In this document: piece by piece, positions 13,828 through 20,594 of the stretch
Layout of the letters: every line of letters begins with the position of its first letter
How positions within the stretch are numbered: position 1 is the stretch's first letter
Assembly (NCBI RefSeq): GCF_018398335.1
Contig: NZ_JAHBRX010000001.1
Location: 3,216,001-3,280,000, forward strand
Source of the DNA: Chelatococcus sp. HY11
GTDB taxonomy: Bacteria; Pseudomonadota; Alphaproteobacteria; Rhizobiales; Beijerinckiaceae
Direction of reading: 5' to 3'
Length of the DNA stretch: 64,000 nt
Program-made: the position numbers and the translations under genes
The notes under the pieces: generated by a model
What the model was told of the DNA's origin: nothing
The model's input: the letters and a program-made list of their open reading frames with translations, nothing else
The model's database searches: none

Positions 13828-14460
13828 ATGGAGCGAAGCGTGCACCGCCATCAGCTGGATTTCTGGTATGATTTCGCGTCGCCCTACGCCTATCTGGCGG
13901 CGATGCGGATTGAAGCCCTCGCGGAAATCCATGCTGTCGATGTCCGCTGGCGGCCTTTCCTGCTCGGACCGATATTCGCCGCGCAGGGTTGGTCGGATTC
14001 GCCGTTCAACCTGTTTCCCGCCAAGGGGCGTTATCACTGGCGTGATCTCGCGCGGCAAAGCGCGAAATACGGCCTGCCCTTCAAGGCCCCTGCGAATTTT
14101 CCACCCAACAGCCTGGCGGCTGTTCGCCTTGGCCTTCATCTGCGCGACAGCGACCAGGCCGGCCCGTTTTCGCGGGCGCTGTTCGCCGCGACCTTCGGTG
14201 AGGGCCGCCCCATGTCCGACGCGGATGTGCTGGCCTCCGTCCTGACGAAGCTCGGCATCGATGCGGGCCGCGCCATTGCCGAGTCGCAAAGCGCTAACGT
14301 GAAGGCACGGTTGCGCGCCGAAACCGAGGAGGCCCGCTCCCGCGGGCTTTTCGGCTCCCCGACCTTCCTCACCGGCGACGGGGAGTTGTTCTGGGGGAAC
14401 GACCGTCTGGAAGAGGCCATGGCCTGGGCTGCCGGCGAGCGCCCCAGCGGCATGCTTTAA
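13828..14460 (+). CDS. 2-hydroxychromene-2-carboxylate isomerase family (DsbA-fold) protein
   Basis: 210 residues. It starts LDFWYDFASPYAYLAA, the DSBA-like isomerase/kappa-GST motif in which Ser replaces the thioredoxin CxxC cysteine and binds glutathione. Near the C-terminus GLFGSPTFLT holds the cis-Pro loop, followed by LFWGNDRLEEA, both hallmarks of the NahD family. The reaction in naphthalene breakdown is isomerisation of hydroxychromene carboxylate. No aromatic-degradation genes are adjacent, so the real substrate is uncertain. It lies alone, just upstream of the rimP operon promoter. Confidence 0.9.
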   Translation: MERSVHRHQLDFWYDFASPYAYLAAMRIEALAEIHAVDVRWRPFLLGPIFAAQGWSDSPFNLFPAKGRYHWRDLARQSAKYGLPFKAPANFPPNSLAAVRLGLHLRDSDQAGPFSRALFAATFGEGRPMSDADVLASVLTKLGIDAGRAIAESQSANVKARLRAETEEARSRGLFGSPTFLTGDGELFWGNDRLEEAMAWAAGERPSGML

Positions 14461-14489
14461 GGCGGCGCGGGTTTTCTGCCGCGCCGGTC

Positions 14490-14518
14490 TTGCACTTGAG
14501 CGCCTTGAGGTCTATGTT
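14490..14518 (+). promoter_or_regulatory. sigma-70 promoter of the rimP-nusA-infB operon
   Basis: TTGCAC at 14490-14495, a 17-base spacer, and TATGTT at 14513-14518. It lies after the isomerase gene and before the hairpin-rich leader, giving an untranslated leader of about 100 bases. Confidence 0.6.
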
Positions 14519-14542
14519 CCCCGCATCCTGATCATCCAGAAT

Positions 14543-14620
14543 GGTTCATGGTGAACCGTGACGGAGAGTGGGCCCCTACGGGTCCGCTCCTTTTTGTTCT
14601 GGAAAATCGAGTAGGGCCCC
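14543..14620 (+). ncRNA. attenuator-like leader RNA upstream of rimP
   Basis: Three elements sit in order. (1) A perfect hairpin GGTTCA-TGG-TGAACC at 14543-14557. (2) A 10-bp GC-rich stem with two G-U pairs, 14566-14575 with 14580-14589 around CTAC, followed one base later by TTTTT (14591-14595), which has the form of an intrinsic terminator. (3) GTAGGGCCC at 14611-14619, next to the rimP start, can pair with the loop and 5' arm of that terminator (GGGCCCCTAC, 14570-14579) over nine pairs with one bulged C. The layout suggests transcription or translation attenuation of the nusA operon. No protein or ligand is identified. Confidence 0.6.
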
Positions 14621-14622
14621 AT

Positions 14623-15399
14623 TTGACCGAGACTGATCTGCATCTGTTGGAACAACGTGTTATTGCCGAAAAGGGCGTGGCCGCGCGCGTGGCCACCATC
14701 GTCGAGCCCGTGCTCGCCGATCTCGGCTTCCGTTTGGTGCGGGTCAAGATCAACGGCATGAACGGATGCACCGTCCAGATCATGGCTGAGCGGCCTGACG
14801 GGTCCATGACCGTCGAGGGCTGCGAAGCGGTGAGCCGCGCGATATCGCCGGTGCTCGACCTCGAGGATCCGATCGACCGCGCCTACCACCTCGAAATCTC
14901 CTCGCCGGGCATTGATCGGCCGCTAGTACGCCGGTCCGATTTCGAACGCTGGGCGGGTCATGAGGCGAAAGTGGAGACCGCTCTGCCCGTCGAGGGCCGC
15001 AAGCGTTTCCGTGGCTTGCTGCGCGGCCTTGATGGGGAGGCGGCGCGTATCGAACGGCTCGACGCCAAGCCAGACGAGGTCGTTGACGTCCTGATACCGC
15101 TCGTCGACATCACCGAGGCGCGCCTTGTCCTCACGGACGAGTTGATCCGCGAGACGCTCCGTCGCGACAAGCATGGCGAGCTCCAGGACCTCGATTTCCA
15201 GGGCCTCGGCGACGATGTCGACATCGAGGATGTGGACGCGGTGCCGGACGAGGCCGACAACGACAACAGGCCGGGCTGGGCGGGCAAAACCAAAGCCAAG
15301 GAAGCCTGGGCCAAGGACGCGAAGACCAAGGGTGGGCCCAATCGCCAGGGCAAGAAGGCCAGCAAGCCTTCTGGTGAGAAGCCTTCCACCAACGAGTGA
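14623..15399 (+). CDS. rimP: ribosome maturation factor RimP
   Basis: 258 residues from TTG 14623. An ATG at 14548 is in frame but lies inside the leader hairpins and would encode an atypical 25-residue extension. The RimP N-domain ([20 protein letters not shown]) is followed by [10 protein letters not shown] and the SH3-like C-domain. A long acidic then Lys/Gly-rich tail (about 200-258) is typical of alphaproteobacteria. RimP acts in 30S subunit assembly. It is the first gene of the operon, with nusA 21 bases downstream. The leader structure sits directly before it. Confidence 0.93.
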
Positions 15400-15420: not shown

Positions 15421-17103
15421 ATGGCGGTGAGCGCCAACAGGCTCGAGCTCCTGCAGATCGCCGACGCCGTCGCGCGGGAAAAAGTGATTGACCGCGGTAT
15501 CGTGCTCGCGGCCATGGAGGATGCGATCGCCAAGGCGGCGCGGTCCCGCTATGGCGCCGAGACCGATATTCACGCGGAAATCAATCCCCGCACGGGCGAA
15601 CTGCGCCTGGCGCGTCACCTGCTCGTTGTGGACGATGTCGAGAATTCATCGACCCAGATCGGCCTCGTTCAGGCGCGGCGCCACAACCCCGCCGCCCAGA
15701 TCGGCGACGTCATCTCCGATACGCTGCCTCCGTTTGATTTCGGCCGCATCGCGGCGCAGTCCGCGAAACAGGTCATCGTGCAGAAGGTCCGCGAGGCCGA
15801 GCGTGATCGCCAGTATGAGGAATTCAAGGACCGCATCGGTCAGATCGTGAACGGCGTCGTGAAGCGCGCCGAATACGGCAACGTGATCGTCGATCTCGGC
15901 CGTGGCGAGGCGATCGTGCGTCGCGACGAGCTCATCCCGCGCGAGACGTTCCGCCCTGGTGACCGCATCCGCGCCTATGTCTATGACGTGCGTCGCGAGA
16001 CGCGCGGACCGCAGATCTTCCTGTCGCGCACCCACCCGCAGTTCATGGCCAAGCTGTTCGCGCAGGAGGTGCCGGAGATCTATGACGGTATCGTCGAGAT
16101 CAAGGCCGTGGCGCGCGACCCGGGCTCCCGCGCCAAGATCGCGGTGATCTCGCGTGATTCCTCCATCGATCCCGTCGGCGCTTGTGTCGGTATGCGCGGT
16201 TCGCGCGTGCAGGCCGTTGTCGGCGAGCTTCAGGGCGAAAAGATCGACATCATTCCGTGGTCCGTCGACAACGCCACCTTCATCGTCAACGCGCTGCAGC
16301 CGGCCGAGGTGGTCAAGGTGGTGCTCGACGAGGATTCAGAGCGCATCGAGGTGGTGGTGCCGGACGAGCAGCTGTCGCTCGCCATCGGCCGCCGCGGCCA
16401 GAACGTGCGGCTCGCCTCCCAGCTCACCGGTTGGGACATCGACATCCTGACGGAGGCCGAGGAATCGGAGCGCCGGCAGAAGGAATTCATCGAGCGAACC
16501 AACATCTTCATGGAACAGCTCGATGTCGATGAGGTCGTCGGCCAGTTGCTCGCCTCGGAAGGTTTCCGCTCGGTCGAGGAAATCGCCTTCGTGGAGCCCT
16601 CGGAACTTGCAACGATCGAGGGCTTCGACGACGATACAGCCGCTGAAATCCAGGCACGCGCGCAGGATTACCTGGCCCGTGTCGAGGCTGAGCTCGATGC
16701 ACGGCGTCAGGAACTCGGCGTCGCTGACGAGTTGCGCGAGATCGACGGTGTGACGACCGCCATGCTCGTGGCATTCGGCGAGAACGACATCAAGACGATC
16801 GAGGATCTCGCCGGCTGCGCGACCGACGAGTTGGCCGGATGGACCGAGCGCAAGGGCCAGGAGACGACCAAGCACAAGGGCATCCTCGATGACCTCGAGG
16901 TCTCCAAGGCCGAAGCGGAAGGCATGATCATGCTGGCCCGTGTCCGCATGGGCTGGATCGACGCCAGCGAGCTCGAGCAGGCGGCCGAGGAAGCCGAAGA
17001 CGGCGAGGAAACCGAGGCCACCGAGGCCACCGAGGCGGACGCCGCGGATGCCGACGAACAGACACCGGCCGAGGGCAGCACAGCCCCGGCCGCAGACAGA
17101 TGA
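15421..17103 (+). CDS. nusA: transcription termination/antitermination protein NusA
   Basis: 560 residues. N-terminal RNAP-binding domain about 1-125; S1 domain about 135-200 (GQIVNGVVKRAEYGNVIVDL); two KH domains (GMRGSRVQAVVGEL; AIGRRGQNVRLASQLTG) to about 345; then two C-terminal acidic repeat domains with helix-hairpin-helix-like segments. The tail contains ATEATEAD from a short GAG-rich tandem near 17010-17040. NusA controls pausing, termination and rRNA antitermination. It is preceded by gaggattgacgac. In many bacteria NusA can repress its own operon, which would suit the leader structure upstream. Confidence 0.98.
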   Translation: MAVSANRLELLQIADAVAREKVIDRGIVLAAMEDAIAKAARSRYGAETDIHAEINPRTGELRLARHLLVVDDVENSSTQIGLVQARRHNPAAQIGDVISDTLPPFDFGRIAAQSAKQVIVQKVREAERDRQYEEFKDRIGQIVNGVVKRAEYGNVIVDLGRGEAIVRRDELIPRETFRPGDRIRAYVYDVRRETRGPQIFLSRTHPQFMAKLFAQEVPEIYDGIVEIKAVARDPGSRAKIAVISRDSSIDPVGACVGMRGSRVQAVVGELQGEKIDIIPWSVDNATFIVNALQPAEVVKVVLDEDSERIEVVVPDEQLSLAIGRRGQNVRLASQLTGWDIDILTEAEESERRQKEFIERTNIFMEQLDVDEVVGQLLASEGFRSVEEIAFVEPSELATIEGFDDDTAAEIQARAQDYLARVEAELDARRQELGVADELREIDGVTTAMLVAFGENDIKTIEDLAGCATDELAGWTERKGQETTKHKGILDDLEVSKAEAEGMIMLARVRMGWIDASELEQAAEEAEDGEETEATEATEADAADADEQTPAEGSTAPAADR

Positions 17104-17119
17104 GGATGGGGAGACCGCC

Positions 17120-17848
17120 ATGTCGCGCCGACGCGACGCAACGGTGGATCTGCGGCGGGAGGAGCGGCTTTGCGCGGTGACGCGCGAGGTCAAGGATCCC
17201 GATGAGCTGATCCGTTTCGTTGCCGGCCCTGACGGGACGATGGTGCCTGACCTGCGCCGCCGGCTTCCGGGGCGCGGTGTCTGGGTGACCGGTACCGCGT
17301 CAGCGGTGCGGCAGGCGGTCAAACGGCGCGCCTTCGGGCGCAGCCTCAAGCAGGATGTGGTGACTTCGCCGGCGCTGGCCGACGAGGTGGCGGCCCTGCT
17401 CCGCCGCGATACCTTGCAGGCGCTCGCGCTCGCCAATAAGGCAGGCGCCGTGGTGACCGGTTTTGGCAAGGTCGAGGAAGCGGCGGAAAAGGGCAAGGTG
17501 GCAGCCTTGCTCCATGCCAGCGAGGCGGCTCCGGATGGCCGGCGCAAACTCGCGCAGGCGATGCGGAGGGGCTTTCCGGAGACCTCGGCGACCGTTGCTG
17601 TCGTCGATGTTTTCGCCGAAGGCGATTTGGATTTGGCATTGGGCCGGGCACATGTGATACATGCAGCCCTCATCGCAGGCCCTGGCAGCGAAGTGTTTAT
17701 GGCGCGCTGGCGTCGATTGGCGCGCTATGTGGCGGATGACGAACCCAGGGCGGGCCCGTCGGACGGTACATTGAACGAATTGGGCACAGGGCCGCGAGGC
17801 CCGGTGATGGATGAACGCGAAGGCGCAGGATTCGAGCGGAATGAGTGA
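17120..17848 (+). CDS. ylxR: YlxR (DUF448) and ribosomal L7Ae-like fusion, RNA-binding protein
   Basis: 242 residues from ATG 17120 (gggga site upstream). The first half is a YlxR domain (RLCAVTREV, then LPGRGVWV). The second is an L7Ae/L30e-like domain ([16 protein letters not shown]). It ends in a low-complexity tail. The fused form is usual in alphaproteobacteria, whereas Firmicutes carry the two as separate genes. YlxR proteins bind RNA, and in Bacillus one modulates RNase P. It overlaps the infB start by 8 bases. Confidence 0.9.
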
Positions 17849-20594
17849 TACAAAAAACCCGACCGACAAGACGCTGAGCGTGACGTCGAAGACGTTGACG
17901 CTGAAGCGCCCAGTCGAACAGGGCGTAGTGCGCCAGAGCTTCTCCCACGGGCGGACCAAATCCGTCGTGGTTGAGAAGGTGAAGCGTCGCGTCATCGGAC
18001 CGGGCGATGTCAAGGAAGGCGCTCCCGCTGCGCCGACGCCTCCCGTTGCTCCCCCCAAGCCCGCGCCAGCTCCGGCAAGGCCGTCCCAGCGGCCCGGCCA
18101 GCAGCAGTCGCAGCGGCCTGCCGCGCAATCGTCCTCGCGCCCCACCGGCGTGGTCCTGCGGACCTTGACCGACGATGAGCGCGATGCCCGCCTGCAAGCC
18201 TTGACGGAAGCCAAGCGCCGCGAGACCGAAGAGCGCCGCGTGGCCGAGGAAGAGGCGAAGCGTCGCGCTATCCGCGAGGCGCAGGAGCGCGTCGAGCGTG
18301 AGGCGGCGGAAGCCCGCAAGCGCGAGGAAGACGAACGTCGCCGGCAGGAAGATGACCGCAAGCGCAAGGCGGAAGAAGAGGCACGCCGGCGCCTTGGCGC
18401 CGAGACCGCTGGCCAGTCCGCGGCACCGGCGTCCCAAGTACCGCGCGCGGAAGCGCCAGCCGCCTCGCGCCGGCCTGAGACCGCTCCCCCGAGCGGCGGC
18501 GCCGCCGCTCGTCCCGCCGGAGCGGGCCAGCCGAGCGGGGCGCCTCGCCGCGCGCCTTTGAACGCAACCGTTCCCTCCAGCCGTCCGCGGCCGCTTGAAT
18601 CGGAATCGGAAGCGCCGCGTGTCATTCGTCGCCCGAGTGGCGTGCCGGGACGGCCTCCCGCTCCGCCGCCGAAGACCCCGAAAGCGCCGGGGACGGACGA
18701 TCGTCGCCGCGGACGCCTGACGCTCGCCACGGCCCATACGGCCGAGGAGGAGCGCACGCATTCCGCGGCCGCCTATCGCCGTCGCCTGCAGCGCATGAAG
18801 GGTTCCGCGAACGAACCGAAAGAGAAGCTCAGCCGCGAAGTCGTCATTCCTGAGACCATCACGATCCAGGAACTGGCGAACCGCATGGCCGAGCGTGGCG
18901 TCGACGTCATCCGCCTGCTGATGAAACAGGGCGAGATGCACAAGATCACCGACGTGATCGACGCCGACACCGCCCAGCTCATCGCCGAGGAACTCGGCCA
19001 CACTGTCAAGCGCGTGGCTGAATCGGACGTGGAAGAAGGCCTGTTTGACGCTCCCGACCAGGAGGCGACGCTCCTGCCGCGCCCGCCGGTCGTGACCATC
19101 ATGGGCCACGTCGACCACGGCAAGACCTCGCTGCTCGACGCCATCCGCCATGCCAATGTGGTGTCGGGCGAGGCAGGTGGTATCACGCAGCACATCGGCG
19201 CCTACCAGGTGACATCGCCGCTCGGCGGCAAGATCACCTTCATCGACACGCCCGGCCACGCCGCCTTCACGGCGATGCGTGCCCGTGGCGCGAAGGTGAC
19301 GGATATAGTCGTGCTCGTGGTGGCGGCTGATGACGGCGTCATGCCCCAGACGGTTGAAGCCATCAACCACGCCAAGGCGGCCAATGTCCCGCTGATCGTG
19401 GCGATCAACAAGATCGACAAGCCGGAAGCGAACCCGCAGCGCGTGCGCACGGAATTGCTCCAGCACGAGATCGTCGTTGAGTCCCTGGGTGGTGACACCC
19501 TCGAATTCGAGGTCTCGGCGAAGGCCGGCACCAACCTCGACAAGCTCCTGGAAGGCCTGCAGCTTCAGTCCGAAATTCTCGATCTGAAGGCGAACCCCGA
19601 CCGTGCCGCCGAAGGCACCGTCGTCGAGGCCAAGCTCGATCGTGGCCGTGGCCCGGTCGCGACCGTGCTCGTCCAGCGCGGCACGCTGAAGGTCGGCGAC
19701 ATCGTTGTCGCCGGTGCCGAATATGGCCGCGTCCGCGCCCTGATCGCCGATACCGGCGATCAGCTGAAGGAGGCCGGTCCGTCGGTTCCGGCCGAGGTGC
19801 TCGGTTTCAACGGCACGCCCGAGGCCGGCGATCGCGTCGCGGTCGTCGAGAACGAGGCGCGTGCCCGCGAGATCACGGGCTATCGCGAGCGTCAGAAGCG
19901 CGATCGCGCCGCCGCGCGTGGCGTGACGGCAGCCCGCTCGCTGACCGACATGATGCGCGACCTCAAGGAAGGCACAGGCCGCAAGGAGTTCGCGCTCGTC
20001 GTCAAGGGCGACGTGCAGGGCTCGGTCGAGGCCATTGTCGGCGCGCTTGAGAAGATCGGCAACGACGAGGTCAGCGCCCGCGTGCTGCATTCCGGCGTCG
20101 GCGGCATCACCGAGAGCGATGTTACGCTCGCGGAAGCCTTCAACGCGGTCATCCTCGGCTTCAACGTGCGCGCCAACAAGGAAACGCGCGAAGCCGCCGA
20201 GCGCACCGGTGTCGAGATCCGCTACTACAACATCATCTACGACCTCGTGGACGATGTGAAACTGGCGATGTCGGGCCTTCTGGCTCCCACGCTCCGCGAG
20301 CACCGGCTTGGCGAAGCGCAAATCCTCGAGATCTTCGACGTGTCGAAGGTCGGCAAGATCGCTGGTTGCCGCGTGCTGGACGGTACGGTGGAGCGTGGTG
20401 CAAACGTGCGCCTCATCCGCGACAACGTGGTCATCCACGAGGGCAAGCTCAGCCAGCTCAAGCGCTTCAAGGACGATGCGAAGGAAGTCGTCGCCGGTCA
20501 GGAATGCGGCATGGCCTTCGAGAATTATCAGGACATGCGCGCCGGCGATCTCATCGAGTGCTATCGCGTCGAGGAGATCAAGCGCACGCTTTGA
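17841..20594 (+). CDS. infB: translation initiation factor IF-2
   Basis: 917 residues from ATG 17841, which matches the family start ([14 protein letters not shown]); an in-frame ATG at 17811 lies deeper in ylxR. A long disordered Pro/Ala/Arg/Glu region with a charged coiled segment covers about 50-320. The IF2_N motif ([20 protein letters not shown]) follows, then the GTPase: G1 [10 protein letters not shown]3 DTPGHAAF, G4 NKIDKPEA. Domains II-IV end at KRTL. IF-2 places initiator tRNA on the 30S subunit. The stop is followed by a palindromic repeat that separates infB from rbfA. Confidence 0.98.

Follow-up and report, generated by a model that had tools for sequence, protein, structure and literature searches.

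A predicted hairpin sharing bases with the rimP-leader terminator ahead of rimP-nusA-infB in Chelatococcus and other Hyphomicrobiales

What controls transcription into the operon that encodes NusA, and does the short leader ahead of it hold more than a terminator? The question is raised by a stretch of 64,000 nucleotides from Chelatococcus sp. HY11 (hereafter the window), in which an initial annotation made from the letters alone saw an attenuator-like leader with competing folds at the head of rimP-nusA-infB and knew of no described element of such form. The rimP-leader has been called the most ubiquitous transcription attenuator and feedback by NusA has been proposed for it at large, its sequence being held beyond pairing needs and its general form being presented without a larger conserved element or a visible antiterminator (Naville & Gautheret 2010, PMC2965389). 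The terminator in the window is a general rimP-leader of this published kind, for which NusA feedback has been proposed (PMC2965389, PMC4448216), and the leader is therefore not new in that respect. The new part is the hairpin directly upstream, here called P1, which covaries and shares the foot of the terminator.

Genomic setting and comparison samples

According to the open reading frame (ORF) list and NCBIfam profiles, rimP is followed by nusA, infB and rbfA, and TTG 14623 is probably the start of rimP (Table 1). The gene upstream gave no match to NCBIfam, and by eye we take it to be DsbA-like. The stretch between this gene and rimP reads, from 5' to 3', promoter, 8-pair hairpin, 10-pair hairpin and T5. 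The closest NusA among named genomes is that of Chelatococcus composti, with 94% identity over 360 amino acids (own-genome records possibly excluded).

Table 1 Features of the rimP leader and its surroundings, in window coordinates
Feature	Position	Strand	Basis and details
Upstream gene	13828-14460	+ (same strand as rimP)	ORF list
Promoter TTGCAC / 17-nt spacer / TATGTT	14490-14518	+	Sequence and recurrence in related loci; boxes at 14490-14495 and 14513-14518
Leader RNA	14525-14597	+	Estimated start about 7 nt past the -10 box, to just beyond the U tract
P1	14532-14567	+	Fold, model-alignment row, pair counts, swap test; closing helix UC-A-UCC (14532-14533, 14535-14537) with GGAGA (14563-14567), inner helix 14541-14548/14552-14559
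Bases common to P1 closing helix and terminator-stem foot	14566-14567	+	Folds, pairing probabilities
Terminator hairpin, rimP-leader type, GAGUGGGCCC-CUAC-GGGUCCGCUC	14566-14589	+	Fold; 110/110 loci, 6/9 further relatives; stem of 10 pairs, 14566-14575 with 14580-14589
U tract (T5)	14591-14595	+	Sequence; 104/110 loci have four or more T among the first 7 bases
Strand B	14597-14603	+	Complementary to P1 14535-14541; mixed support
Competing segment of the initial annotation, GTAGGGCCCCAT	14611-14622	+	Good pairing with the terminator arm, confined to the window's genus
rimP	14623-15399	+	ORF, putative TTG start 14623; NCBIfam RimP NF000932, 253.7 bits, cut-off 185
nusA	15421-17103	+	NCBIfam TIGR01953, 448 bits, cut-off 253
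infB	17811-20594	+	NCBIfam TIGR00487, 791 bits, cut-off 424

For comparison, we used 110 related loci, consisting of the best 30 RimP matches of a 41-genome sample of relatives and the best 80 named NusA relatives; RimP was located in all of them, and as some are duplicates the set comprises 100 distinct leaders. In the sample of relatives, a RimP match was available for 39 of the 41 genomes, one being the window's own. Nine further relatives with a RimP match (L151-L159) lie outside the 110 loci. The class sample included 190 alphaproteobacterial genomes, 158 of them with a RimP match, and 40 class loci were fetched. Four of the 80 NusA relatives (L058, L072, L084 and L108) have record titles without a Hyphomicrobiales taxon name, and two leaders resemble those of other taxa than their titles suggest, possibly a naming matter: that of L065, titled Chelatococcus sambhunathii, resembles Hansschlegelia (L064) and not C. 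composti (L031), and that of L108, titled Rhodobacterales bacterium, resembles Roseibium (L083, L086, L087 and L089).

An open frame running from ATG 14548 to 15399 crosses the terminator in frame into rimP, and C. composti (L006) has the same ATG open frame; a simple pattern found no Shine-Dalgarno-like site before either ATG, and the through-terminator frame is probably due to chance. Candidate leader peptides were tallied as raw counts, with a start codon followed by at least 8 codons in 107 of 110 leaders, an ATG in 49 and a Shine-Dalgarno-like site in 23.

Promoter and terminator of the leader

The well-spaced promoter named in the initial annotation is present, and a promoter-like pair recurs 22-75 nt upstream of the terminator in 98 of the 110 related loci; among 515 random placements, 3 had one. 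A scan with an E. coli-type consensus found no promoter and, like the generic terminator scan, is uninformative here. The leader RNA folds at -30.9 kcal/mol, compared with -20.7 ± 2.8 kcal/mol for shuffled sequences (z -3.7, 0 of 200 equally good), while the fold of 14525-14660, in which the 3' flank is included, does not stand out from shuffles (z -1.0). A terminator-like match alone does not exceed chance (one found, 1.5 ± 1.1 in shuffles), and it is because of its conservation across relatives that the leader as a whole stands above chance.

The terminator-form hairpin and T5 run that had been placed before rimP were likewise confirmed, the hairpin being present upstream of rimP in every related locus, in 107 by a pattern that was devised after viewing their sequences and in three by eye, of which L010 has a variant stem and L019 and L025 have the terminator farther upstream. 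Of the nine further relatives, six share the motif; L155 carries a terminator-type hairpin of another kind, that of L156 is altered, and none was found in the rimP leader of L158. The distance from the terminator to RimP (estimated start) ranges from 7 to 684 nt with a median of 63 nt and is at most 130 nt in 95 of the 110 loci. A strict pattern applied to whole genomes matched in 24 of the 41 genomes, many of which had already been viewed, with one site each and all 24 sites upstream of rimP; the reversed pattern used as a control matched in 2 of 41. In the 190 class genomes, eight had a match to the strict pattern (five of the eight upstream of rimP), which is not above the reversed control (11 of 190), because other orders have a related but different stem (such as GTGGGC..GCCCAC). 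A stem of the GTGGG, GCGGG or GTGGC type with a T run at most 130 nt from the RimP match was present in 32 of the 40 class loci from other orders, or in 29 of 37 without the three loci picked for their pattern match.

Across 44 cluster representatives, 99.7% of the cells of the terminator stem pair, with three pairs invariant, two varying on one side and two on both sides (the MAFFT leader alignment misaligns the P1 part and was used for the terminator stem alone). The window has GUCC in its 3' arm, with one G-U pair (GGGC...GUCC), where relatives mostly have CCC; this position is GC in 37 representatives, GU in six and UA in one. The sequence of the terminator stem is conserved beyond what pairing demands. 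In six of the 110 loci (L007, L013, L064, L065, L085 and L097), the U tract is lost and the hairpin kept, and such hairpins may serve a function different from intrinsic termination.

The upstream hairpin P1 and its possible role

The perfect small hairpin of the initial annotation is also there, as the eight pairs of the P1 inner helix. When each leader was folded over the stretch that begins at the estimated start and ends with the first base of AGTGGG, the terminator foot closed a hairpin in most of them, with closing helices such as UCUCA...UGAGA, UCUUG...CAAGA and CAUC...GAUG. In 42 of the 44 representatives, two or more of the five foot bases pair within P1. The overlap with the terminator is certain for two pairs and includes up to four bases in relatives. 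Folds of the P1 segment in 80 distinct stretches with a called promoter had a mean z of -1.7 (62 below -1 and 36 below -2), the window's own segment being weak (z -0.9).

The pairing of P1 was further assessed by a swap test, in which the five 3' bases were exchanged among the 44 cluster representatives; the test uses no structural alignment and corrects for relatedness by clustering alone. In the Hyphomicrobiales, the leaders fold better with their own 3' strands (z -3.8, 0 of 5000 permutations), with z from -2.9 to -3.8 for random cluster members, and an earlier version with a fixed 40-nt 5' flank regardless of promoter gave z -2.6 (p 0.006). For other alphaproteobacterial orders the result was z -2.4 (55 of 5000; n=26 after six near-duplicates were dropped from 32), and for both sets joined z -5.96 (n=70, 0 of 5000), a value possibly inflated by composition differences between orders. 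Control terminators from the same loci, with slightly different segment lengths, had z 0.09 (n=15). Judged from these comparisons, covariation of P1 is supported in the Hyphomicrobiales and weakly indicated in the other orders. Five loci of other orders (L118, L123, L138, L147 and L148) carry CCC before the inner hairpin where the foot is GGG, both pairing in the fold, and their P1 strand changes along with the terminator foot; L140 resembles them by eye, and its fold differs.

From 10 seed rows we built a covariance model (R1), which matches the window at 14531-14597 with 29.4 bits (E 6.6e-5). With a limit of E ≤0.1 it recovers the leader in 95 of 98 sources (missing L030, L065 and L085), and two further matches lie on the opposite strand over the leader. 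In L151-L160, nine of ten matched at E ≤0.014, the exception being L158. Searched against whole genomes, R1 had a match in 35 of 41 and its best match at the rimP leader in 33 of 41; in G024 the best match lies elsewhere, in G009 no RimP was found, and weaker off-locus matches exist, the top one with E 1.3e-4 in G020. For the 40 class loci, which lie outside the order, 8 matches were obtained at E ≤0.01. In the fitted alignment (A3), each of the 10 modelled P1 pairs varies at both of its positions. Covariation scores 0.211 there, compared with 0.119 ± 0.005 when shuffled and at most 0.072 when slid, and the fitting of A3 to the structure inflates this score. With seed rows excluded, the innermost closing pair, counted by cluster, is A-U in 18, G-C in 9, C-G in 3, G-U in 1 and unpaired in 5 (n=36). 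For the central inner pair, the counts are A-U in 10, G-C in 6, C-G in 5, G-U in 3, U-A in 2, U-G in 1 and unpaired in 3 (n=30). The outermost closing pair is the weakest, pairing in 72 of 87 non-seed rows.

Comparison and calculation show a conserved order of promoter and terminator, the terminator stem, P1 with its covariation and the sharing of a strand. On this basis we favour, with some reserve, the reading that the leader is a promoter-proximal attenuator of rimP-nusA-infB tuned by P1 and, by inference, by NusA. Transcription would start about 40 nt before the conserved intrinsic terminator, and part of the RNA polymerases would stop after about 70 nt while the rest read into rimP. P1, being directly upstream of the terminator, would form first in the nascent RNA, and its closing helix would occupy bases of the terminator foot (14566-14567 in the window, up to four in relatives), so that the terminator must reclaim the foot from P1 to close beside the U tract. 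Closure of the stem beside the U tract matters for termination. In calculations on the nascent RNA before the terminator 3' arm, P1 engages the four bases of the foot with a mean probability of 0.76-0.86, and after the 3' arm has emerged the foot is in the terminator with a probability of 0.88, the terminator thus winning at equilibrium. Since P1 can pair the foot first and must then give up between two and four bases next to the U tract, it is a plausible brake on termination, which it may weaken or delay, making the efficiency adjustable; as the terminator wins at equilibrium and the overlap is two sure pairs, P1 need not be an antiterminator. NusA is our best guess as the likely effector, by analogy with the ylxS-nusA leader of B. 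subtilis, for whose autoregulation Mondal et al. 2016 is said to be the original report; more NusA would then lead to more termination and less expression of the operon. The relatives support, in outline, the initial annotation's view of an attenuator-type leader heading the NusA operon; its promoter is conserved, and overlapping pairings show covariation.

It is possible, although we hold it to be unlikely, that this is a plain rimP-leader in which the terminator alone attenuates, its hairpin being recognised by NusA or another factor, and P1 is a separate, non-competing element serving as 5' protection, as a pause hairpin or as a protein site stacked on the terminator. The equilibrium result and the overlap of two sure pairs agree with such an arrangement, as does the terminator stem, whose sequence is much more strongly conserved than that of P1, and the short S. 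agalactiae leader, with 31 nt from start to termination, has little room for a P1 (PMC4448216). However, the closing strand of P1 tracks changes in the foot, as expected if the same bases serve both structures. A leader that chiefly yields a trans-acting small RNA of about 70 nt, with rimP expressed by read-through, would fit a promoter and terminator that together form a complete small transcription unit, but the confinement of the motif to rimP in the 41 genomes (24 of 24 matches) points to cis action, and we consider this reading very improbable. Equally hard to credit is a hairpin that terminates transcripts of the upstream gene and merely insulates rimP: that gene does lie on the same strand, but a promoter-like pair recurring in 98 of 110 loci is located between it and the hairpin, so that operon transcripts from that promoter must cross the terminator.

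Downstream segments and relation to known systems

The competing fold of the initial annotation was a different one, with a segment beside the rimP start (14611-14622) as antiterminator strand pairing with the terminator 5' arm and loop. This pairing is possible in the window (-20 kcal/mol, z -3.1 against shuffles), where its equilibrium share is about 0.014 compared with 0.983 for the arm in the terminator, and it is kept in the very similar L002 (z -2.2) and L003 (z -3.6) and less so in L004 (z -1.7), but across the 105 of 110 loci that were long enough the complementarity is no better than shuffled (mean z +0.23), with values below -2 in four loci (the window, the two very similar genus members and L054), the segment is transcribed after the termination point, and GGGCCC is self-complementary and makes such pairing cheap, which leaves this antiterminator with next to no credibility. 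The competitor of the terminator that the comparisons support is P1, and it is in P1 that covariation among the Hyphomicrobiales is found.

A second downstream segment, strand B, is a candidate partner of P1, with which it forms a perfect 7-base inverted repeat around the terminator in the window (TCCAGAA 14535-14541, TTCTGGA 14597-14603). Its swap test gave z -4.98, and its mean z against its own shuffles was -0.78 (n=44) or -1.08 (n=110), below -1.5 in 14 of 44, with a mean z of 0.07 for the next 25 nt as a control. In the ensemble, the expected pairs were 8.6 against 7.5 for shuffled B and higher in 24 of 44, a weak effect, and in other orders the mean z was -0.14 and the swap z -2.2. As strand B is transcribed past the termination point, it would act on read-through RNA alone, in which it could, for instance, offer a target for RNase III, an enzyme that takes part in repressing NusA and IF2 in E. 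coli (PMC8708148).

More tentatively, the leader may belong to a class-wide alphaproteobacterial switch for NusA, RimP and IF2, in which P1 would be a sensor holding the foot, to be freed by a Nus factor or a 30S assembly protein, the P1 strand of read-through RNA would refold with a segment beyond the U tract into a third state, and lineages that kept the hairpins but lost the U tract would use the structure without intrinsic termination. If this doubtful extension were true, the third state might keep the leader open or make it a target of RNase III. The sharing of the terminator foot by P1 spans an order and perhaps the class, and it gives a testable handle on a setting that was left open earlier, with no antiterminator seen (PMC2965389). 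A few point mutations can separate the terminator, P1 and NusA, and R1 supplies a covariance model for the leader, which goes unscored by Rfam in this group.

At gathering score, Rfam has no match in the window or in 16 related loci. The Rfam family RF01770 (rimP), a 102-position model for the same operon and of the same name, reached its cut-off (47 bits) in 0 of 21 genomes and does not match the window leader even at E up to 10. The sole Rfam match in 14440-14700 at E up to 10 is CC0196 on the opposite strand (14462-14486; 12.5 bits against 35), which we regard as chance. No match to nusA, yhbC or infB was found in two alphaproteobacterial RNA surveys (PMC2704228, PMC2873474). The open-licence literature searched yielded no account of P1 or of a rimP leader from an alphaproteobacterium, and no transcript data for the latter.

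Among known systems, the general rimP-leader is the closest (PMC2965389), with its GGGc(...)gCCC stem of G-rich and C-rich arms, its T stretch, its position 5' of rimP-nusA-infB at 4-130 nt from the gene (33 nt to TTG 14623 in the window) and its operon specificity, which here amounts to 24 of 24 matches in 41 genomes. Unlike the general form as far as reported there, P1 covaries here and shares the terminator foot, and the descriptor "no larger conserved element" therefore does not apply. At rimP of S. agalactiae, a single start is reported to yield both short and long RNAs, and NusA feedback is suggested; that rimP-nusA-infB leader resembles ours in its premature termination within the 5' region, although its termination 31 nt past the start leaves little room for an upstream hairpin, unlike here (PMC4448216). 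The ylxS-nusA leader of B. subtilis likewise has an intrinsic terminator in the leader of a NusA operon, and NusA is reported to be autoregulated there by stimulating termination in its own leader, in a distant phylum, while a role of NusA in our leader would be by analogy (PMC12288461). The gammaproteobacterial tandem rimP-leader is similar in having a second upstream structure with alternative pairing, but that structure is a second terminator of the inverse form CCCg(...)cGGG (PMC2965389), whereas P1 in the window has no U tract of its own.
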